A DNA stretch of 15,456 bases from Candidatus Eiseniibacteriota bacterium (GTDB lineage: Bacteria > JAFGKV01): positions 1 to 15,456 of the forward strand of contig JALOPK010000038.1 of NCBI GenBank assembly GCA_025453925.1. The letters are read 5' to 3'. Below, one piece after another: positions 3,046-15,456 of this stretch (positions are counted from its first letter, which is position 1; each line of letters begins with the position of its first letter). Both the position numbers and the translations under genes were made by a program. The notes under the pieces were generated by a model that had not been told where the DNA came from, did no database searches, and saw nothing but the letters and a program-made list of their open reading frames with translations.

Positions 3046-3618
3046 CTACCAGACCAACGAGAGGGCGAGGCTCCCGGGAGACACGGCAACGGCCACGGGG
3101 CCGCTCCTGCCCCCTTTCAGGCAGTGCACTGCCGAGGCTACCCGTGTCAGGACCGCGAATGCCAGCACGTTCTTCGACGCCGAGTCCCAACGGCGTCGGT
3201 CGCGGACCAGAGTCGTGAAATGTCGCCGCTCGTCCTCGGAACGCCAGGTCCAGACCTTGGAGCCCGAGTACCGGTATGGGTCCTGGTAATGCTGATTGGC
3301 GCGCTCCGAGTTCCAGTAGCGGGTCATGTCGTCATAGTAGGCACCGTCCCGGACCGATGGATCACTGCCCGCGTGGGCAGCCCCGTAGGCGACATAGCCA
3401 TCTTCAACCCCGTCGGCGCGGTGCCCCAGATAGTACCGGCTCCCCCACACCATGCCCTCCGCCACGAGAAAAGCCTGGGCTGAACCCCGCCATCCAAGGT
3501 AGGCTTGACCGGCCCCCGGCAACGCCGTAGACAGCAGGGCCGCCAGGGTTCTGCACTCACCACCCCACGAGGGCAGAACGGCCGCCAGGAGGGCGCACGC
3601 GGCGAGGAGCCGCCTCAT
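3046..3618 (-). CDS. DUF5683-like exported protein, short paralogue
   Basis: A 190-residue protein of unknown function. Residues 1-20 form a signal-peptide-like hydrophobic start. LPGAGQAYLGWRG at 33-45 matches the LxPGxGQxYxG motif of DUF5683-type proteins, which usually sits in or beside a membrane-associated segment. It is a diverged paralogue of the gene just upstream: shared blocks include PGAGQ-Y-G, G-(V/L)-ED-(G/D)-Y, RY(W/Y) and a C-terminal hydrophobic stretch (NVLAFAVLTRVASAV against NRLLGVALVARAATAI). It lacks about 60-80 residues present in the middle of its neighbour. Its ATG overlaps the neighbour's stop as ATGA and no strong Shine-Dalgarno is seen, so translation is probably coupled. 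It is the last gene of the minus-strand operon. The DUF assignment rests on motif memory only. Confidence 0.85.
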   Translation of the reverse strand: MRRLLAACALLAAVLPSWGGECRTLAALLSTALPGAGQAYLGWRGSAQAFLVAEGMVWGSRYYLGHRADGVEDGYVAYGAAHAGSDPSVRDGAYYDDMTRYWNSERANQHYQDPYRYSGSKVWTWRSEDERRHFTTLVRDRRRWDSASKNVLAFAVLTRVASAVHCLKGGRSGPVAVAVSPGSLALSLVW

Positions 3619-4436
3619 CGAAGGAGACTCCGCCAGGCAACCACGAAGGCGGGATCCTGCCGCGACCAGTCAATGGACACCGAGAGGCCGTCCCGCGCCT
3701 CCCGTGTCTCCCGGGCATCGTGGAGGGCCTCGATGGCGGTCGCGGCACGGGCCACCAAGGCGACCCCAAGCAGCCTGTTCGCCCAGCGCAGGCGGCTGTC
3801 GGCTTTGGCCCGCAACCGGCGGCACTCGTCTCGGCGCGGGGAGACATACGCGAAGTGGAGCCCATCGGCATCCTGCCACCAGAAGTCCCCGTTACCGAAT
3901 TGGTTGGGAGCCCAGTCGTCCCAGCCGAAGATGTAGGCGTTTGAGGCTTCGACATCCTGGTAGTACCTGACGAGGTCGCGTTCGCGAGCTTCCCGGATGT
4001 CATGCCAGTAGACGGTGTCTGCCCAGACGAAGGTCGGCTCGATGGTCCGGAAGAAGTCCCACCACTCGAACCAACCCCGCTCGGCGTCATTGGAGAAGTC
4101 TGGATTGCTCAGATCGTAGTGCTCGTCGGTGAAGGCACGGTAGTCATCCTCAAGGCCATTGCCGTCGGCCTTGAGAGCGGCGTACCCGCCCCAGATGGCG
4201 GCATCAGCGGCAACGAATGCCCACCCTGCGGAACGACCCTGGTAGATCTGCCCAGCGCCCGGCACCAGAGCCGAAAGGAGAAACGAAATGCCGGGGGAGG
4301 GCCCCATGCCCGGCGGCGCGACACTCTCAGTCAGAGATGTGTTCACATCGACGCCCCGCAACACAGGGCCCAGGTCTTCCTGCGCGATGGCCGCGTTCCA
4401 TCCGAGCGCGGCAAGCACAACCAGCGGCACACGCAC
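3615..4436 (-). CDS. DUF5683-like exported protein, long paralogue
   Basis: A 273-residue protein beginning at GTG 4436. The frame is open upstream to 4544, but that extension overlaps the protease gene. GGAGG at 4447-4443, six bases before GTG 4436, and a signal peptide directly after it (cleavage likely after Ala18) decide the start. LVPGAGQIYQGR at 57-68 is the DUF5683-type motif, followed by a hydrophobic Ala/Trp-rich segment that may insert in a membrane. The middle is acidic and rich in Trp and Tyr; residues about 225-250 form an Arg-rich helix leading to a hydrophobic stretch (RLLGVALVARAATAI). The next gene is a shorter paralogue. Both follow the protease gene with no gap, so they are probably co-expressed with it and act in the envelope. 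Actual function is unknown. Confidence 0.87.
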   Translation of the reverse strand: MRVPLVVLAALGWNAAIAQEDLGPVLRGVDVNTSLTESVAPPGMGPSPGISFLLSALVPGAGQIYQGRSAGWAFVAADAAIWGGYAALKADGNGLEDDYRAFTDEHYDLSNPDFSNDAERGWFEWWDFFRTIEPTFVWADTVYWHDIREARERDLVRYYQDVEASNAYIFGWDDWAPNQFGNGDFWWQDADGLHFAYVSPRRDECRRLRAKADSRLRWANRLLGVALVARAATAIEALHDARETREARDGLSVSIDWSRQDPAFVVAWRSLLR

Positions 4437-4437
4437 G

Positions 4438-7400
4438 TCATTCCTCCCCGAGAACGGCGAATGGGTGGACAAGCGATCGGGTCGAGCCCTCATACCCGGC
4501 CTCGAGCCTGCAGAGATAGACGCCCATGGGCATTCTGGCCTCAAACGTCCAGTCCTGGCGCTGGCCGCTGGCGGTGCCTGTCCACCCCTGCCTTCGGCGG
4601 CCTCCGGCGTCGAGTATGGTGAGGCCGATCAACGCCCCCGCCCGCGCCCGGAACGACACGTGGGCTTCAGATCCGGACACGGGGCTAGGCCACACGTAGA
4701 AGTCTCCAGAGTCAACCAACCCCTCGGTCGCCGCGGGTGGGGATCCGCTGCCCGCCCACCCGGTCATGGCAGAAGTCCCCCTGGAGAAGAACCATCCCGC
4801 GCCACTGTGGTACGGGAGATCCCACGCGTGGAGTGCGCCGACGCTGTCGGACAGAACCGCCTCGAGATCGCCGTCGCCATCAAGATCCGCAAGAACTCCC
4901 CCCGTCAGCGCGGGAACAGCCAGCGGCCATCCCTCCATGCTTCGGCGCGGAGGCCGACGCAGATCCACGCCACGCCCCGACACACTCATGAACTCTCCGC
5001 GGTCGTCGCCATCCGCGTCGAAACACAACACAGCGTGGGTTGGTGCGGTCTCATCGCCATTTCGGACCCCGGTGCAATCGGCGATGGGATCACCGGCCGA
5101 GGACCACGCCCAGATGCCGCCGTATGTGTCAGAGGCGCCGATATCCAAGACGCCGTCGCCGTCAACGTCGCAGATCACGAGGGGCAGGGACAGGCTTGCG
5201 CCAGGTTCCACCGGCCATCCCGGGCAGGGACGTCCGTCCGGGGCGAGCACCCAGATGTGCGTCGCGGAGCCTACCACTGTCTCCACCACCCCGTCTCCCT
5301 CTAGATCAGCGACCAAAGGCTCGGAGAGCCGGGTTTCATCGTGCATGACCGGCCACCCGGGGAGTGGTTCTCCCGAGGAGCTGAGGGCGAACACGCCCTG
5401 TCCGCAGAAGACCAGATCCTTGGATCCATCGCCGTCCACGTCAGCCACTGCCGGCGCACCCACGGGACCATCGGCCAGGACGATCGGCCACCCCGGCGAC
5501 ATCACGCCCGCCATATTCAGCAGACAGGCCCGGCCATCGGCACTGCCCACCGCGACCTCAGGAGATCCGTCGCCGTCGAGATCGGCCAGCACCGGCGTGG
5601 ACAGAGCGCGCCCGGTCGGCGCGACCGGCCATCCCGGCAGCGGTCCCCCGGCGTCCGGACCGCGCAATGCCATGAGGGCCAGCCGTCCTCCCTCCGCGCT
5701 CATGGCGACGACGCCCTCCATCATTCCGTCGATGGGGATCGCCGCAGGGGCATTGACCACCTGTTGGAAACTGTCCCACAGCACCACCGGCAGGAGATCC
5801 ACCCCCACCGCAAAGACCTTGCCCCGGCCGCCGACCAAAGTGATGGTCTCCCCGGTCGCGGTGTGCACCACGTTCGGAGGGGTGAGGGGGCCCTGCGTCA
5901 CCGCGATCGGCCACCCTTCCTGTCCCCACGATCGGGCAAACGAGAAGGTCATGACGGCGCCCGCAGCCGAGATGTTCGATATCTCGACGTGGGTTCGGCG
6001 GGCGGCATTATCCCAGGAAGCCGGGCGAGTCGCACTTCCGAAGTGGTCATTATGACCTGCCCTGAACGGGTCACCATCGGTCCCCGCCGGGTCAACGTCC
6101 TCCGTCCCCGGAGGACGGCTGCTGGTCTCGAAGTACTGGAGACCGAGATTCTCGACACCCTCGGCCTCTTCCAGCGCCACACCCCGGTGGCGAATCAAAG
6201 TATCGGCATCCGCGTCGTACTCGAGGATGTTCGGCAACCCACTGTCCCACAAACCTTGCGCAGTATCGACATGCCAGATGAGAAGGCCCGAGCCGGGCAG
6301 CCCCGCGTCGTATTCCGTCGTGGTGGTGTCGCCCGTTACCGTAGTCGGGCCCAGGATCACGCCCGCGCCCGACTTGAGGTAGACCGTCGGATCGCCGTCG
6401 GTGTCGACCTGGCGGTTCTCCAGCAGGAAGTGCTCCGACTCGCTGATGGTGATGCGGTACGCGGATGAGGCCTGAGTGGTGGCGGTCACGGCGTATTCAC
6501 CCGGAAGGGTCAACTCCTCCGGACTGACCCACCCCAGCATCTGCTTGCTGAACGCGCACAGCGAGGGAGGCAGCACGCCCACCAGAACGCGGCCCGTCTG
6601 GTCCTGAAAGGCCATGCCGTCGCCGTTGTCCATGAGCGCCCAGTATCCCACCACGTTGCTGAAGTATGCATAGTCATAGAGATCCAGGAGCCCCAGCTGA
6701 TGCCCGAACTCGTGGGCAAGCTCCGAATGGATGCAGGCAACTTCCCGAGAAGGATCCAGATCCTGGTTGATCGCCTCGGGCATGACGATGACATCGTCCA
6801 CCGCATGGGAGCTGTCGTCAACCATGACCGGCGAGCCGAGAAACGTGGTCAGCGAGGGGATGTAGGCGGTGATGAGGTCGCAGGGCGAGTCGCCGGCGTA
6901 ATCATGTTGCCAATCACCGCCCGCGTGAAACACGATGTAGGTGTCGAACTCCCCCAGAGTCACGGAAGAATCGCCGTCGGCGGCCAGCAGCGCATCCGCG
7001 GCGAGACGGGCCAGACGATCCTCCCGCTCGCTGAGGTCGTTGGGATTCTGGTAGTAGCTGTAGTATGCCGTGCGATGGGGCATTCGAAACGCCCCGTCAT
7101 CCTCATCCGGGAGAACCCGGAATTCGATGGAAAGGGATCCGTAGGACTGCACGGCATAGTAGCGCGCCAGCGCATCCATGACCCCCTCGAAGTATCGCCT
7201 GTTGTGAGGAGGCGCTCCGGGATATCGATCGGACGTTTCGGCTCCGGAGAGATCGAACGAGCCGTTCCCGGAGATGCCGCAGCCGTCATCCGGCCGGGGC
7301 GCGGGAAAGTCCACGCGGATCGCGAGTACCCTCAGGGTCGTTGCCTCGCCTTTCCGGCGGTGGGCGATCGGGGACTGCCTGCTGCTCCCGAGGTGAACCC

Positions 7401-7557
7401 GCGGCCGAGGGGAACTCACAAGGCGGCCCGCGATGGGCGACGGCCCAGCGGACGAGACCTTCAGCACGTCGCTTCCGGCGGGTCCTGCAACGAGCACCGC
7501 AGCGACGCCGGCGATCGCGCACGCCCTCCCCGGGAGTTTCGACACCGAGCGGATCAA
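4438..7557 (-). CDS. Secreted M6-family zinc metalloprotease with FG-GAP repeats and FlgD/T9SS-like C-terminal domain
   Basis: A 1039-residue exported endopeptidase. The start is TTG 7557, two bases after the upstream stop; GTG 7545 is an alternative, and both give a signal peptide of about 25-30 residues. The catalytic domain contains HEFGHQLGLLDLYD with His282, Glu283, His286 and Asp292, the HExxHxxGxxD zinc site of the M6 (immune inhibitor A-like) family. Residues about 655-900 hold six FG-GAP/VCBS-type repeats with calcium-loop cores near 659, 703, 752, 798, 848 and 890 (DLDGDG, DVDGDG, DLEGDG, DVDGDG, DADGDD, DLDGDG), likely a beta-propeller. The last 85 residues (VWPSP, then a beta-sandwich pattern, then MGVYLCRLE) resemble FlgD-Ig or type-A T9SS sorting domains, with a short GEE tail. 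The gene directly upstream encodes a PorV-like protein, the expected shuttle for such a tail. Protease identity is firm; the secretion route is inferred. Confidence 0.93.
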   Translation of the reverse strand: MIRSVSKLPGRACAIAGVAAVLVAGPAGSDVLKVSSAGPSPIAGRLVSSPRPRVHLGSSRQSPIAHRRKGEATTLRVLAIRVDFPAPRPDDGCGISGNGSFDLSGAETSDRYPGAPPHNRRYFEGVMDALARYYAVQSYGSLSIEFRVLPDEDDGAFRMPHRTAYYSYYQNPNDLSEREDRLARLAADALLAADGDSSVTLGEFDTYIVFHAGGDWQHDYAGDSPCDLITAYIPSLTTFLGSPVMVDDSSHAVDDVIVMPEAINQDLDPSREVACIHSELAHEFGHQLGLLDLYDYAYFSNVVGYWALMDNGDGMAFQDQTGRVLVGVLPPSLCAFSKQMLGWVSPEELTLPGEYAVTATTQASSAYRITISESEHFLLENRQVDTDGDPTVYLKSGAGVILGPTTVTGDTTTTEYDAGLPGSGLLIWHVDTAQGLWDSGLPNILEYDADADTLIRHRGVALEEAEGVENLGLQYFETSSRPPGTEDVDPAGTDGDPFRAGHNDHFGSATRPASWDNAARRTHVEISNISAAGAVMTFSFARSWGQEGWPIAVTQGPLTPPNVVHTATGETITLVGGRGKVFAVGVDLLPVVLWDSFQQVVNAPAAIPIDGMMEGVVAMSAEGGRLALMALRGPDAGGPLPGWPVAPTGRALSTPVLADLDGDGSPEVAVGSADGRACLLNMAGVMSPGWPIVLADGPVGAPAVADVDGDGSKDLVFCGQGVFALSSSGEPLPGWPVMHDETRLSEPLVADLEGDGVVETVVGSATHIWVLAPDGRPCPGWPVEPGASLSLPLVICDVDGDGVLDIGASDTYGGIWAWSSAGDPIADCTGVRNGDETAPTHAVLCFDADGDDRGEFMSVSGRGVDLRRPPRRSMEGWPLAVPALTGGVLADLDGDGDLEAVLSDSVGALHAWDLPYHSGAGWFFSRGTSAMTGWAGSGSPPAATEGLVDSGDFYVWPSPVSGSEAHVSFRARAGALIGLTILDAGGRRRQGWTGTASGQRQDWTFEARMPMGVYLCRLEAGYEGSTRSLVHPFAVLGEE
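4443..4447 (-). promoter_or_regulatory. Ribosome binding site inside the end of the protease gene
   Basis: GGAGG on the minus strand lies within the last codons of the protease gene, six bases before GTG 4436. It sets the start of the long DUF5683-like paralogue and indicates tight operon packing. Confidence 0.75.
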
Positions 7558-7559
7558 AG

Positions 7560-8594
7560 CTAGATCAGGACCTTCAGGGAGTACATCTTCGTGTAGGTGC
7601 TCCCCAAATCCTCCGGTGGCTCGATGAAGGCGAAGTCGAACTGGAACCGCTTGTACTTCAGACCGCCTCCGAAGGTGGCGCCCTTGGGCACGTTGCCGGC
7701 TTCACGGTCGTAGTAGTAGCCGCCCCGGAGGAAAACGGCGTAGGCATCATTGGCGTCTGCGTACTTGTACTCGGCGCCGACGCAGCGCTTGCTCTCGCGG
7801 AGTTCGTCGGCGAATCCGTCCTCGCTCCAGTTCACCATGACCTTGTTCAACTCGGTCGAGAGCAGCAGCGCCCCGAATGAAGGCCTGTCCATGACTTTGT
7901 ACGCCAGGCCGACTCTGAGCAGGCGCGGCATCGGATCGGCCGCGGCTTCGGAGCGGTAGGAAATCTCCGGGCCGATGTTGGAGAGGCTCGCGCCGACGTT
8001 CAGACCGTTGAGGAGGCCAGGGATGCGGTAAAGCCATCCCAGATCGACCGCCCAGTTGGTGCCAACCCCTTCATCTGGGTGGAGCTGGCTCCGGATGTAC
8101 TTCAGGTTGCCGCCGACGCCCATGCGTGACGTGATCCGGGTGCTGTAGGACAGATTGAGAGCGATGTCGTACACCCGGAACGTGCCGAGTTCGTTGTTGT
8201 CCTCGTCTGTTTCCATCACCTCCCCGACGTGCAGGTAGTTGGCACTCAGGCCAAAGTGACCCCATCCTGGCACATGCTGCGTATAGGCGAAGTACTCGAG
8301 ATAGAGGTCATCCAGATCAAAGACCGGCATCCACGGCGAATGCATGAGGAAGAGTTCCCGCGGGCAAGGGCCGCCGGACTCGGTATCACACTTGAGTGCC
8401 AGACCGCCCGGGTTGTAGAACGCCGCGGTCGCATCATCGGAGACCGCAACGAACGCCTGCCCCATGCCGTTGGCGCGTGCGCCGGGAGCGAGGATCAGGA
8501 ACACGACCGCCGTACCCACTTCGGCACGGGCCGGTTGCGGGACCAGTACCATCGAAAGCAGAATCAGAACACTCGCTGCCACTCTCCGAATCAC
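7560..8594 (-). CDS. PorV/PorQ-family outer-membrane beta-barrel protein
   Basis: A 344-residue outer-membrane protein starting at GTG 8594. The N-terminus is a signal peptide with cleavage after ARA at residue 24. PGARANGMGQAFVAVSDD (37-54) and YNPGGLA (60-66) match the GARAxGMGxAFxAxADD...NPAGLA signature of the PorV/PorQ family, distantly related to FadL. The remainder alternates polar and hydrophobic residues as barrel strands do, with many Gly, Tyr and Asn, and ends in a hydrophobic strand (YSLKVLI). In Bacteroidetes, PorV binds the C-terminal domain of type IX cargo and carries it to the attachment complex. Here it is followed after two bases by a protease with such a domain. Family membership is well supported; an actual T9SS in this organism is not shown by this window. 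Confidence 0.92.
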   Translation of the reverse strand: MIRRVAASVLILLSMVLVPQPARAEVGTAVVFLILAPGARANGMGQAFVAVSDDATAAFYNPGGLALKCDTESGGPCPRELFLMHSPWMPVFDLDDLYLEYFAYTQHVPGWGHFGLSANYLHVGEVMETDEDNNELGTFRVYDIALNLSYSTRITSRMGVGGNLKYIRSQLHPDEGVGTNWAVDLGWLYRIPGLLNGLNVGASLSNIGPEISYRSEAAADPMPRLLRVGLAYKVMDRPSFGALLLSTELNKVMVNWSEDGFADELRESKRCVGAEYKYADANDAYAVFLRGGYYYDREAGNVPKGATFGGGLKYKRFQFDFAFIEPPEDLGSTYTKMYSLKVLI

Positions 8595-8639: not shown

Positions 8640-8673
8640 GGGGTATGCCGTCAGCGCCTACTGAGCATACCCC
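8640..8673 (-). terminator. Hairpin spanning the holA stop codon
   Basis: Perfect 9-base arms GGGGTATGC (8640-8648) and GCATACCCC (8665-8673) enclose a 16-base loop. The holA stop codon (8653-8651) lies in the loop. On the minus strand the stem is followed about 12 bases later by a TTTTCTTCTT run and then the ribosome site of the PorV-like gene. It could be a partial terminator, an attenuator or an RNA-stability element between the replication gene and the secretion genes; the gap before the T-run makes a classical terminator doubtful. Confidence 0.5.
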
Positions 8674-9703
8674 CGGCCCGGGAGGCGGTTCCTTCGGGGT
8701 CGAGCGATATCAGAAAGCGGGTGAGGGCGGCCTCCGGTCGCGCCGCCCCGGACTTCGACGTCAGCTCTGCGGCAAACAGATCGTCCAGCGCCTGCAGCAC
8801 GCGCGCGGCCGACCATCCCTGAGCCTTGGCGAGCACCTCCTTGAGCCTCCAGGGAGGGAATGCTTCCGCCAGCCCCTCGCGGGGGAGTGTGACGGCGAGA
8901 AGGATATCCTCGAGCATGGCCGCCAAGGAGGGAAGCACGCGCATGGCATTGCGCGGCAGCAGGAGAACCGAATCCAGGGCGGCCAGCGCGCGGGGAACAT
9001 CTCCGGCGGCCGCGGCATCCAGAAGATCGGGCAACGAACCCGCACTCGCATCAGCGACTTCGTCGACCGTGGCGCGGGTGACTTCGCCGTCGGCGCCGGC
9101 ATAGGCAACAAGCTTGTCGAGTTCCTGTTCCAGATCCAGGAGACTGGTCCCCGTGAGCGCGACCAGTCGGGCGACCGCCTTGCCGTCGATCCGGAGACCT
9201 CGTCCCTTCGCTTCCCGCTGCACCCACGGGCCAAGCTGACGGTCCGGCAGCGGATAGCAGCCGAAGCAGGAAAGGGCTTTCAGAAGGCCTCCGCCGGGCA
9301 TGGATGGAAGCGTGACGGAAGGGCTGGCGATGAGTACGAGACACCACGTGTCTCCTCCCGCAGAGAGGACCTTGCGGAGGTACTCCGCCTCGCGGGTCAG
9401 CTTCCCTCCCCGTTGAGCCTTGCCAAGCAGCTTCTCGGCCTGGCGCACGACGACCAGCCGCCTTCGGGCAATCATCGGCAGGGTGGAGATCTCCTCGCCG
9501 ACATCCGCGAGGCTTGCCTCGCTTCCAAGGAGTTCGCCATAGTCCAACGGGCGGACCTCGCCGCACAGTTCCCTGATCCGTTCAAACGCTTTTCGACAGA
9601 GGTACTCCTCGGGGCCGAAGACAAGGTACGCCGCCCGCAAGAGCGGCTCAGGCCTGGTGAGCTCCGACCACAACTCGGGAAAGTACATTCTCTGCTGTCG
9701 CAT
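8651..9703 (-). CDS. holA: DNA polymerase III delta subunit (clamp-loader HolA)
   Basis: A 350-residue cytoplasmic protein of the replicative clamp loader, which opens the beta sliding clamp. The sequence has the HolA layout: YLVFGPEEYLCRKAFERI near 26-43 (family YLLxGxexxLxxea), a diverged AAA+ fold with GEEISTLPMIARRRLVVVRQAEKL, the segment WCLVLIASPS at the strand position where the family has LVIxxp, a central helical part (LVALTGTSLLDLEQELDKLVAYA, typical Gxdlxxlxxelekl), and a helical collar at the C-terminus. Total length fits the usual 330-350 residues. The start is uncertain: ATG 9703 or ATG 9688 both fit, and the frame is open further to 9748. It heads the minus-strand gene run, 56 bases before the PorV-like gene and divergent from the PEGA gene. 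Family assignment is confident. Confidence 0.9.
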   Translation of the reverse strand: MRQQRMYFPELWSELTRPEPLLRAAYLVFGPEEYLCRKAFERIRELCGEVRPLDYGELLGSEASLADVGEEISTLPMIARRRLVVVRQAEKLLGKAQRGGKLTREAEYLRKVLSAGGDTWCLVLIASPSVTLPSMPGGGLLKALSCFGCYPLPDRQLGPWVQREAKGRGLRIDGKAVARLVALTGTSLLDLEQELDKLVAYAGADGEVTRATVDEVADASAGSLPDLLDAAAAGDVPRALAALDSVLLLPRNAMRVLPSLAAMLEDILLAVTLPREGLAEAFPPWRLKEVLAKAQGWSAARVLQALDDLFAAELTSKSGAARPEAALTRFLISLDPEGTASRAGGMLSRR

Positions 9704-9795
9704 GCCTGGACAAACCTCAGTCCGCCGCCCACATTGTCGGCGGCACAATTCGTGGGTCTGGTCGCGCTGTCAGGCATCCAACTAGAGTCCAAACC
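9704..9795. promoter_or_regulatory. Divergent holA/PEGA-gene intergenic region with overlapping inverted repeats
   Basis: These 92 bases must contain both divergent promoters. CCGCCG (9722-9727) pairs with CGGCGG (9738-9743). Overlapping it is an operator-like repeat, ATTGT (9733-9737) and ACAAT (9745-9749) with seven bases between. TAGAGT at 9783-9788 resembles a -10 box; if used, transcription would start almost at the GTG of the plus-strand gene. No good -35 box is seen on either strand. Confidence 0.35.
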
Positions 9796-10521
9796 GTGTT
9801 CGGTCAACTCATCTTCAGCTTCTTGATCCTCGGTATCCCGTCCGGAACGGATCTCAGCCTTACCACCCTTCCATCCGGACTGGAGGTGTGGCTGGACGGA
9901 ACGTGGCACGGGCTGGCGCCGTTGACCGTACGGGGAATACCACCAGGCGCCCATCACATCAGAGTTGCCTCACGGCAGCTGTGGGCGATCCAGCCTGTTG
10001 ATACTGTCATGTGCCTCGGGCCTGGATTGAACCGCGTAAGGTTGACTGCACCGGGCACCCTTCATGTTGTCAGCGACGACGCTGGGGCGAGAGTACTGGA
10101 GGATGGCCGTGAGGTCGGGCATAGTCCGCTGATGGTGTCCCGCGGAGCGGCGGTGCGTCGCCGGATGTCGGTGCGCGTGGGTGATGAGACGGTGCACCTT
10201 TGGGATTGGACCCCCATGCCGGGGTCCCTCACCACCGTTCGCCTTCACCATCACCCGTTGCGGCAGACGCCGGCCCGAGAGAGCGGCGTCCGGGCTGCCG
10301 TCCTCACCTGCATCGCGGTCATGGCGATGGCGGCATCGTCCGCGGTCCTTGCCCGCCGGGCAGACGATGCCTACGACGAGTACCGAACCACCGCACACCC
10401 CGATCGGATGCGCACACTTTTTCGCAGGGCCCGGCGGCTGGACCGTTGGGCGTCAGGGCTTTGGTCAGGCTTCGAGGTCGGCGCAGCCGTGGGGCTGGCG
10501 TGGTGGATCCTGGCTGCATGA
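9796..10521 (+). CDS. PEGA-domain membrane protein
   Basis: A 241-residue envelope protein beginning at GTG 9796, the first usable start in the frame; no Shine-Dalgarno is evident. Residues 1-17 form a short signal sequence or anchor. Residues about 20-60 read LTTLPSGLEVWLDGTWHG, then APLTVRGIPPGAHHIRV, a clear PEGA module (beta domain often found in surface proteins). A weaker second copy follows at about 88-120. Two hydrophobic segments follow at about 164-184 and 223-241, flanking an amphipathic stretch (DDAYDEYRTTAHPDRMRTLFRRARRLDRW) of a kind seen at the end of PEGA and TPR envelope proteins in this group. The stop overlaps the next gene's ATG as ATGA, so the two are probably translated together. 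Function beyond envelope structure or binding is unknown. Confidence 0.85.
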   Translation: MFGQLIFSFLILGIPSGTDLSLTTLPSGLEVWLDGTWHGLAPLTVRGIPPGAHHIRVASRQLWAIQPVDTVMCLGPGLNRVRLTAPGTLHVVSDDAGARVLEDGREVGHSPLMVSRGAAVRRRMSVRVGDETVHLWDWTPMPGSLTTVRLHHHPLRQTPARESGVRAAVLTCIAVMAMAASSAVLARRADDAYDEYRTTAHPDRMRTLFRRARRLDRWASGLWSGFEVGAAVGLAWWILAA

Positions 10522-13257: not shown

Positions 13258-13286
13258 TTGACGTGGGCATGCCGGCATCATAGCAT
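13258..13286 (+). promoter_or_regulatory. Sigma70-type promoter candidate with palindrome in spacer
   Basis: TTGACG (13258-13263) and TAGCAT (13281-13286) match consensus at five and four of six positions and are exactly 17 bases apart. The spacer contains the perfect 10-base palindrome ATGCCGGCAT at 13269-13278, well placed for a repressor or activator. A start near 13293 would give a leader of roughly 180 bases before the FGE-domain gene. Confidence 0.5.
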
Positions 13287-13364
13287 TAGGGGGTTTGCGG
13301 GAACAAGATCCCCTGCGGGAGCCGCCCGGTTCTTGGCTGGATCACCCGGCGCGCGACAGCCTGG

Positions 13365-13390
13365 CGTCGCGGAACGCTGTGTCCGCGACG
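13365..13390 (+). other. Inverted repeat (leader hairpin)
   Basis: Perfect 9-base arms CGTCGCGGA (13365-13373) and TCCGCGACG (13382-13390) surround an 8-base loop. TCTTCCT follows directly. It lies between the promoter candidate and the gene start and could act as an attenuator, a leader hairpin or a protein-binding site. Confidence 0.5.
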
Positions 13391-13430
13391 TCTTCCTGGC
13401 TGCGACTGAGATGACTCCGACCCCGGCAGG

Positions 13431-13444
13431 CACCACGGGTGGTG
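13431..13444 (+). promoter_or_regulatory. Operator-like palindrome
   Basis: CACCAC-GG-GTGGTG has perfect 6-base arms and lies 29 bases before the ATG of the FGE-domain gene. It is suited to a dimeric DNA-binding protein or a small hairpin near the ribosome site. Confidence 0.35.
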
Positions 13445-13473
13445 ATACGCTCACTCTAGGCGAGGGGACAGCC

Positions 13474-15456
13474 ATGGACGCTCAGGTCGAACGGATTCGT
13501 GACTGCTTTCTGACGCGAGCGAAGGAGTTGGGGTATAGGGTCGAGGTGCAGCCTCGGCCTCCCCAGGGCTACCTGTTCTGCGCGGATTTGTACGCGGGGC
13601 CATCTCGGGTGGGGCGTCTCTCCACCCGGAGGACCACCGTATCATGGCGGGCGGCGGGTGCCCCGAAGGCCACGCGCGTGGAGAGTGAGCAGGCGATCTC
13701 CGGGCTCCTTCCGCCACCAGATCTGTCCGGCGCTGCGCTGGCGCCGGTGTCTCCTGATGCCCTGTCCCCTCCCCTACCCACCCCCGACATCGGCCAGGCC
13801 GGAACCATCCGGGATGCGATACCGAATGCTTCAATGCTCGCAACGCCGTCAGACGCCCCGCCGGCCGAAGTCGGAGGACCATCTCCGGTCGCGGTCCATC
13901 CGCCGCATACTGAGGCGCCTCCATCCCCCCCACCCGTGCCCGAACCTCGGGAGACTCTCCAGGCTGAAGCAACGCTCCACGCGCGGGCCGATTCACCACC
14001 GGAACCGGAGAAGCCTCTGGCGAAATCACCCAGTGGCTTGTCCCGGGCCATGACATCATTCAAGGAAGGCGATTTCGAGAAGGCGATCCAGTGGGCAAGA
14101 CTGGCCATGGCCGAGAATCCGGACAGTCACACGGCGAGAGATCTCCTCGCCAGGGCGCAACGCCTGGTGGAGTCGGGTCGCGCCGATGAACCCCCTGCCC
14201 CACCCGCCCCCGCGGAATCCCTCACGCCGCCGGCGCCGCCGCCGCCGAAAGAGAGCCCTGCGAGGATGCCTCTTCCCCAAGGACCCTCGGTACCAGACGT
14301 GAGACCCCCCGAGCCAGCTCCGCCACGGGTGGCCCTGGCAGCGGCGGCCCCTCCGAGCCCGCCTGAGGCTCCGGCACCGGCGACACGGCCTCGTGAAGCG
14401 CCGCATCTCCGCGGGAAGAGCCCGGCGTCGCCCGTCGAGCACAAGAAGCGCCGGACGTCGCCGGTGGTGTTCGTCCTGTTCGCCGTCGTGGTGATCGCGC
14501 TTTGGGTCACCCGGCCCCGACCCTACTCCCCCGGCCCTCCGCCCGAGCCGTTACCCGCGGCGATGGACACCCTCGCCGTCCTGCGCGAGCAGGCCACCAG
14601 GATGCTCCGGGATCTGCGAGGCGACACGCTGGGGACTTCGGGAGGCGCAGCGCTGGAGAAGCTCCTGGACATCCTCCAGCACGAGCCCGCGGACAGCGAT
14701 GCGATGGCGCAGATCGTCGTTCTCAGCTCCCGGGAGGATTCCCTGGCCCAGGCGCACTTGAGGGCCAACCGGTTCGTGAGGGCATCCGAGTTCCTCGATC
14801 AGGGGCGCCGCGGATGGCAGGCGGCAGGCGTCCGCGCCGACAGCGCCGTAGCCCGGCTTCAAGTGAGAAACGGGATACTCCAGGAGATCCTGGAGGCGAA
14901 GAGGGCCATGTTCACCTCGATGGTGCACGTCCCGGCCGGTCCATTCCGCCGGGGATCAAACCGGGGCGGACTCGATGCCAGGCCCGAGCGTGACATCCAG
15001 GTGTCGGGTTTCTACATCGACAGGACGGAAGTCACCAATGCCCAGTACCGAGCCTTCCTGATGGACATCGCTGCCGATGGCTCGGTGCAAGAGCTCCCGA
15101 TGGGGAATGCGAACCTCCCGGTGGTCTCGGTATCATGGGACGAGGCCGCGAGGTTCGCCGCATGGGCAGGGAAGCGTCTCCCCACGGAAGCCGAGTGGGA
15201 GAAGGCCGCTCGCGGCACTGACGGGCGGGCATACCCGTGGGGGGACGAGTTCGACCAGGCCCGCGTGATCGGGCGGGGCGCCGCCTCTGTGCAACCGGTG
15301 GGAAGCGCCCCCCTCGGCGCGAGCCCATACGGCGCCATGGACATGGCGGGAAACGTCAGGGAGTGGACTGCTGATTACTATGACCCGCTCTACTATGGGC
15401 GCTCGCCTTCCGCGGACCCTACAGGCCCAGCCCGGGGACGCGACCGAGTGGTTCGC
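13474..15456 (+). CDS. Single-pass membrane protein with TPR-like segment and FGE-sulfatase domain, partial (C-terminus beyond window)
   Basis: The frame from ATG 13474 runs without a stop to the right edge (661 residues). GAGGGG at 13462-13467 is an acceptable ribosome site. Residues 1-85 form a small module without a signal peptide. Residues about 86-188 are a Pro/Ala-rich linker, 190-228 a TPR-like helical pair (MTSFKEGDFEKAIQWARLA), and 230-325 a second Pro-rich linker ending in basic HKKRR. Residues 330-347 (VVFVLFAVVVIALWV) are a membrane helix. Residues 360-478 are largely helical. From 483 the formylglycine-generating-enzyme-like domain begins: MVHVPAGPFRRGS, FYIDRTEVTNAQYRAFL, RLPTEAEWEKAARG, YPWGDEFD, MDMAGNVREWT. 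By topology the N-terminal part is cytoplasmic and the FGE-like domain periplasmic. The domain's last third is missing, so the copper-binding cysteines of true FGE cannot be judged; many relatives are non-catalytic. Confidence 0.9.
   Translation, partial: MDAQVERIRDCFLTRAKELGYRVEVQPRPPQGYLFCADLYAGPSRVGRLSTRRTTVSWRAAGAPKATRVESEQAISGLLPPPDLSGAALAPVSPDALSPPLPTPDIGQAGTIRDAIPNASMLATPSDAPPAEVGGPSPVAVHPPHTEAPPSPPPVPEPRETLQAEATLHARADSPPEPEKPLAKSPSGLSRAMTSFKEGDFEKAIQWARLAMAENPDSHTARDLLARAQRLVESGRADEPPAPPAPAESLTPPAPPPPKESPARMPLPQGPSVPDVRPPEPAPPRVALAAAAPPSPPEAPAPATRPREAPHLRGKSPASPVEHKKRRTSPVVFVLFAVVVIALWVTRPRPYSPGPPPEPLPAAMDTLAVLREQATRMLRDLRGDTLGTSGGAALEKLLDILQHEPADSDAMAQIVVLSSREDSLAQAHLRANRFVRASEFLDQGRRGWQAAGVRADSAVARLQVRNGILQEILEAKRAMFTSMVHVPAGPFRRGSNRGGLDARPERDIQVSGFYIDRTEVTNAQYRAFLMDIAADGSVQELPMGNANLPVVSVSWDEAARFAAWAGKRLPTEAEWEKAARGTDGRAYPWGDEFDQARVIGRGAASVQPVGSAPLGASPYGAMDMAGNVREWTADYYDPLYYGRSPSADPTGPARGRDRVVR

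Follow-up and report, generated by a model that had tools for sequence, protein, structure and literature searches.

A zinc metalloprotease gene beside porV in a Candidatus Eiseniibacteriota genome and its place in a porU-porV locus found in many phyla

The type IX secretion system (T9SS) has been studied almost exclusively in Bacteroidota, and its presence in several other phyla has been suggested earlier (PMC11285876). The question raised by the locus described here is what an M6-family protease gene is doing directly beside the gene for a PorV-type shuttle in a bacterium from another phylum. The window, meaning the whole stretch of DNA that was analyzed, comprises 15,456 nt of contig JALOPK010000038.1 from Candidatus Eiseniibacteriota bacterium. 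Its source genome (G000) is 3.9 Mb in size and 82% complete, and statements made here about the whole genome are based on profile searches. The original prediction saw in the two genes a dedicated shuttle/cargo unit in a lineage where type IX secretion is poorly described. The description of the lineage is borne out, as only three genomes of the phylum were among those searched: the window's own, one from the same genus (G001) and one from the same family (G002), the two relatives being 94% and 98% complete. For comparison across phyla, 84,980 species genomes were scanned with the PorV profile, which resulted in 80 loci. The answer that we consider reasonably probable is that the M6 protein may be a secreted surface protease, collected by PorV, on the attachment side of the T9SS outside Bacteroidota. 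The basis for this reading is the linkage to porV, an intact zinc site, the homology of the C-terminal tail and the presence of SprA.

Profile matches and coordinates confirm that a PorV/PorQ-type barrel gene lies two bases from an M6 protease gene (Table 1), with the PorV stop codon TAG at 7562-7560 and the M6 start codon TTG at 7557. The pair is therefore real, but the unit does not stop at the predicted bounds of 4438-8594 and runs further, to two DUF5683-like genes. The first of these likely begins at a GTG at 4436, one base past the M6 stop codon (the mechanical ORF starts at 4544), and it overlaps the second by 4 bases. All five genes from holA to the second DUF5683-like gene are tightly spaced on the minus strand, and this spacing is consistent with an operon. 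The same order, including the upstream holA, was found in G001 and G002 as far as their contigs extend, and holA occupies the slot that is held by porU in many relatives. The plus strand of the window holds a gene for a PEGA-domain protein, divergent from the putative holA-porV operon (9796-10521), one for a type I pullulanase-like GH13 protein with CBM48 (863-2959; 342.9 bits against a cut-off of 504.5) and an open-ended gene for a TPR and FGE-sulfatase protein that is weakly GldK-like (13258-15456; 73 bits, cut-off 350).

Table 1. Genes of the porV-M6 locus and parts of the M6 protein, in window coordinates
Feature	Position	Strand	Evidence
holA, DNA polymerase III delta subunit	8651-9748	-	TIGR01128, 161.9 bits; upstream neighbour of porV
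porV-type T9SS outer-membrane shuttle barrel, 344 aa	7560-8594	-	NF033709, PF19572, PDB 6h3i
M6-family zinc metalloprotease with propeller and T9SS-type tail, 1039 aa	4438-7557	-	PF05547, M6dom, NF052323
M6 catalytic region, ~residues 70-542	5932-7350	-	NF052323 over 67-541; Foldseek match InhA2 4yu6
Intact zinc site HEFGHQLGLLD, residues 282-292	6682-6714	-	sequence motif
Beta-propeller with FG-GAP repeats, residues 544-916	4810-5928	-	FG-GAP_3; VIA-align
C-terminal seven-strand Ig-like domain, T9SS type A-like tail, residues 951-1039	4441-4707	-	model; tails of relatives
First DUF5683-like gene	3615-4436	-	PF18935, E=0.0045, 17.5 bits, below cut-off; conserved position
Second DUF5683-like gene	3046-3618	-	resembles the first; tandem conserved in relatives

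The barrel protein belongs to the PorV/PorQ family, with 223.6 bits against NF033709 PorV_fam (cut-off 90) and 63.6 bits against Pfam PorV PF19572 (cut-off 27), and the best solved match of its family profile was F. johnsoniae PorV (6h3i, 9e-53). The PorV equivalog model NF033710 gave 162 bits, under its cut-off of 250, and the PorQ model was lower still (91.2 bits). A second PorV that is ~48-53% identical to that of the window was found in G001 (L040:7365-8750), on a contig that ends just beyond it. Additionally, several loci encode long PorVs of 820-937 aa (L048:6741-9203, L052:6766-9447, L124:5260-8073, L146:3529-6144 and also L131) that have an insert of several hundred residues within the barrel. 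Reg_prop propeller repeats match this insert in L048 and L146, and a propeller of this kind is also known from PorZ.

A type IX secretion system is likely in the window's genome because of the SprA translocon and 56 other sorting tails. SprA scored 357 bits over one frame with TIGR04189 (cut-off 200), and it was above the cut-off in G001 and G002 as well; 50 of the 56 TIGR04183 tail matches were marked as above cut-off. The absence of T9SS core genes, which would have told against the original prediction, was thus not what was found. PorU stayed under its cut-off, and the GldL and GldM profiles, whose reach is unproven, had no match in 17 genomes, with one weak GldM match among 14 more.

The protein encoded next to porV matched Pfam Peptidase_M6 with 33.7 bits (cut-off 22) and keeps the HExxHxxGxxD motif. 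Its AlphaFold model (mean pLDDT 80) consists of a leader helix, the M6 domain, a propeller and a seven-strand C-terminal domain. The propeller aligned to solved propellers with a VIA-align Z of ~30, eight-bladed designs being among the best, and the Foldseek and VIA matches of the whole model were mostly generic propellers.

The C-terminal domain had been predicted to be a type A sorting or FlgD-Ig domain, and this could not be proven by HMM alone. The window tail scored 12.8 bits with TIGR04183 (E=0.087, cut-off 23) and is absent from the 56 matches in the genome, and FlgD_ig matched a relative weakly. Since the tail's own score is below threshold, the claim of homology depends on the relatives. 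TIGR04183 (E<=0.1) matched 38 of 39 aligned family tails, the best with 1.7e-11, and the sole exception was the tail of the window. The M6 family profile also matched PorZ (5m11), in both its propeller and its tail, and the substrate tail of a PorV complex (8glj_D), and the model places seven strands at 954-1035 with a pLDDT of ~79-94. Judged from the family alignment, the profile match and the predicted fold, the window tail descends from sorting domains but has diverged. Homology and fold thus agree with the prediction, but the tail's own TIGR04183 score does not.

The survey across phyla places the pair in a larger context. The next gene after porV belongs to the M6 family in 65 of the 78 PorV loci that extend more than 400 bases beyond porV, covering more than 10 phyla, and the gaps range from -11 to 168 bases. 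The sortase gene porU lies directly upstream of porV in 49 of the 76 loci that have over 700 bases of sequence ahead of it, and the general order is porU-porV-M6-(X)-DUF5683-DUF5683, where X is a further gene described below. M6-bearing loci include those of Fermentibacterota, Calditrichota, Electryoneota, Ignavibacteriota, Chlorobiota, Balneolota, Rhodothermota, Fidelibacterota, Cloacimonadota, Eiseniibacteriota, Zixiibacteriota and Gemmatimonadota. As a control, PorV paralogues at other sites with ample flanking sequence (L053, L055, L057) were without M6. The adjacency counts and paralogue controls place the porV-M6 pair within the porU-porV locus. porV adjoins porU in Bacteroidota (PMC5445135, PMC8564354), and, judged from gene order, the pair belongs to this known locus, extended by M6 and the DUF5683-like genes. 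As 13 of the 78 PorV loci have no adjoining M6 gene, M6 is not essential to every T9SS. A porU-porV-M6-X locus was not found described in the open-access literature. Two side observations concern porU itself: one locus has a tandem porU pair (1337 and 1611 aa) upstream of porV (L152:3-8935), and porU-porV occurs in contigs labelled Desulfuromonas and Desulfobulbaceae (L110, L150), which may be binning errors or transfer.

Conserved adjacency was thus found as predicted. However, the accompanying argument, that a PorV gene rarely has one cargo gene as its partner, ignores the Bacteroidota, where porV lies beside porU, itself a tailed surface protein, and "dedicated shuttle/cargo unit" is too narrow for a porV copy that adjoins porU in relatives and a genome with 56 other tails. 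It is therefore highly unlikely that the window PorV is a private shuttle for M6 as SprF is for SprB. The two-base gap, the conserved pairing and the several PorV-family members of the genome (5 matches at E<=1e-10, window PorV included) would fit a private shuttle, but the remaining paralogues are far less similar to the window PorV (<=91 bits), and one PorV serves type A tails in F. johnsoniae (PMC12618676).

The comparison of loci also revealed a relationship between the state of M6 and gene X, which encodes a protein of ~1010 aa and sits between M6 and the DUF5683-like genes in many loci (for example L044:12240-15275 and L089:7840-10875). Its domains are Peptidase_MA_2 with HExxH, which every full-length copy keeps, and a TolB-like propeller. 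The model of the protein has a helical protease part, the TolB-like propeller and a long-stranded C-terminal region that is read as a putative outer-membrane barrel from the predicted strand pattern. The fold-search matches listed for gene X cover its propeller, and no family model covering the whole protein was found. Where M6 is full-length and enough sequence follows it, 15 loci have an intact M6 without X, 37 have a dead M6 together with X, and none has both an intact M6 and X. Another 4 loci have a dead M6 without X beside it; a full-length X is encoded elsewhere in their genomes, as it is in G055 (~950-1095 bits). X matches in the 17 M6-intact genomes were partial only (<=163 bits). The L129 genome has another PorV locus that follows the same pattern, with a dead M6 and then X.

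A Fisher p of 2e-10 for this exclusion was rejected as independent support because the intact or dead state changes once on the M6 tree, which makes the exclusion one evolutionary event. It could be a coincidence of descent, but from the sequences we read it as one coupled event that has been retained over many phyla. No earlier description of the exclusion between intact M6 and X was found in the open-access literature, and the split between intact and dead M6 against the presence of X offers a direct test of which of the two proteases processes T9SS cargo. The dead forms also bear on whether M6 is an ordinary degradative enzyme acting outside the cell, which would use the general T9SS and lie beside porV by chance. 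Secreted proteases are common among T9SS cargo, many proteins of this genome are tailed and the zinc site is intact. However, a position beside porV that is conserved in more than 10 phyla, with a dead form retained in most of them, is unlike a mere digestive enzyme, and this explanation seems unlikely. The linkage could also reflect co-regulation of porV and M6 instead of a physical complex.

The phylum of the window stands out with regard to PorU and PorZ. PorU NF033707 (cut-off 420) had no match above its cut-off in any of the three genomes (best stretch 218 bits, whole protein 290.4 bits), and PorZ had no match at E<=1e-15 in the same genomes. The best match to the PorU model was a C25 protein of ~1380-1390 aa (G000:C44, G001:C87, G002:C119), in which the catalytic Cys and His are retained and the C-terminus is PorU-like. 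It is encoded at L157:2809-6975 in the window's genome and at L158 and L159, and its tail is FlgD_ig-like. None of the C25 proteins inspected in the phylum's genomes, the C44-type protein included, has the EHEHTRD motif, in which the second His is conserved in 98% of porV-linked PorUs. In the tree, the porV-linked PorUs group together (support 98) to the exclusion of the C44-type protein, which is tentatively placed beside them (support 72, branch length 2.0); by sequence, the C44-type protein could be a diverged PorU. These data support a phylum without canonical PorU or PorZ in which PorV, SprA and an intact M6 remain, but they do not support a loss of PorU activity. No earlier report of this phylum-wide lack was found in the open-access literature, and it raises the question of how, or whether, tails are removed there.

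One answer would be that M6 replaces PorU in this phylum and removes sorting tails after export. The lack of a PorU match above cut-off and of PorZ, which includes the two more complete genomes, the missing EHEHTRD motif and the position of M6 beside porV, as PorU has elsewhere, all point in this direction. However, the C44-type protein with its catalytic residues could itself be PorU, PorU is also present in most other M6-intact genomes, and a T9SS without PorU, PorQ and PorZ has been reported for Sphingobacteriia (PMC7323717), which leaves replacement of PorU by M6 quite improbable. A broader form, in which the phylum has a T9SS without canonical PorU and PorZ and M6 would be a second, unrelated class of T9SS signal peptidase, with the proteolytic task of the locus moving to X in other phyla once M6 was dead, is doubtful to the same degree. 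Two related readings were rejected: loss of PorU forcing M6 activity is not general, given the M6-intact genomes that retain PorU, and M6 as a substitute for PorZ does not agree with genomes that have both (G003, G047, G056, G057 and those of L121 and L130).

If the M6 protein is a surface protease collected by PorV, as we favor, it would be exported by Sec and moved through the outer membrane by SprA, and PorV would then bind its tail so that M6 stays on the cell surface. There it may cleave proteins arriving through the T9SS, either in maturation or to remove their tails. In most phyla the zinc site of M6 has been lost, and proteolysis would probably be carried out by X, probably anchored in the outer membrane and encoded alongside or elsewhere. 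In the clade of the window, X is absent and M6 would be the active partner. That so many phyla have a protease gene fixed in this locus suggests that some part of export or attachment has so far gone unstudied.

Several known systems resemble the window pair in part. In SprB/SprF, the gene for a tailed protein likewise adjoins its shuttle gene, and the known dedicated T9SS pairs combine PorP/SprF shuttles with type B tails (PMC12618676); the window pair has neither of these, but a PorV-family shuttle and a type A-like tail. PorZ (5m11) shares the propeller and type A-like tail, and the C-terminal half of the M6 family profile matches it (1.9e-6). However, PorZ is without an M6 domain, and since the two occur together in several genomes, M6 is not simply its substitute. 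InhA2 (immune inhibitor A, 4yu6) shares the M6 domain and zinc motif, but the window protein combines this domain with a propeller and T9SS-type tail and is linked to porV. The dead M6 branch is already represented in NCBIfam as NF052323 T9SSA_dep_M6i (T9SS-dependent M6-like inactivated metalloprotease), which has the same order of M6-like domain, propeller and type A tail, and whose members met here lie in the same place after porV. The dead branch scores up to 684.8 bits with this model (reached at L042) and intact M6 members 210-371. With an intact zinc site and 209.9 bits against a cut-off of 600, the window M6 is not a member and belongs to an active sister clade. A parallel in gene arrangement is PorU-PorV of Bacteroidota, where a tailed protease gene likewise adjoins porV and PorV has been proposed as the anchor of PorU (PMC5445135). 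PorU is a C25 cysteine protease encoded upstream of porV, whereas M6 is a zinc protease encoded downstream that coexists with PorU in most lineages.
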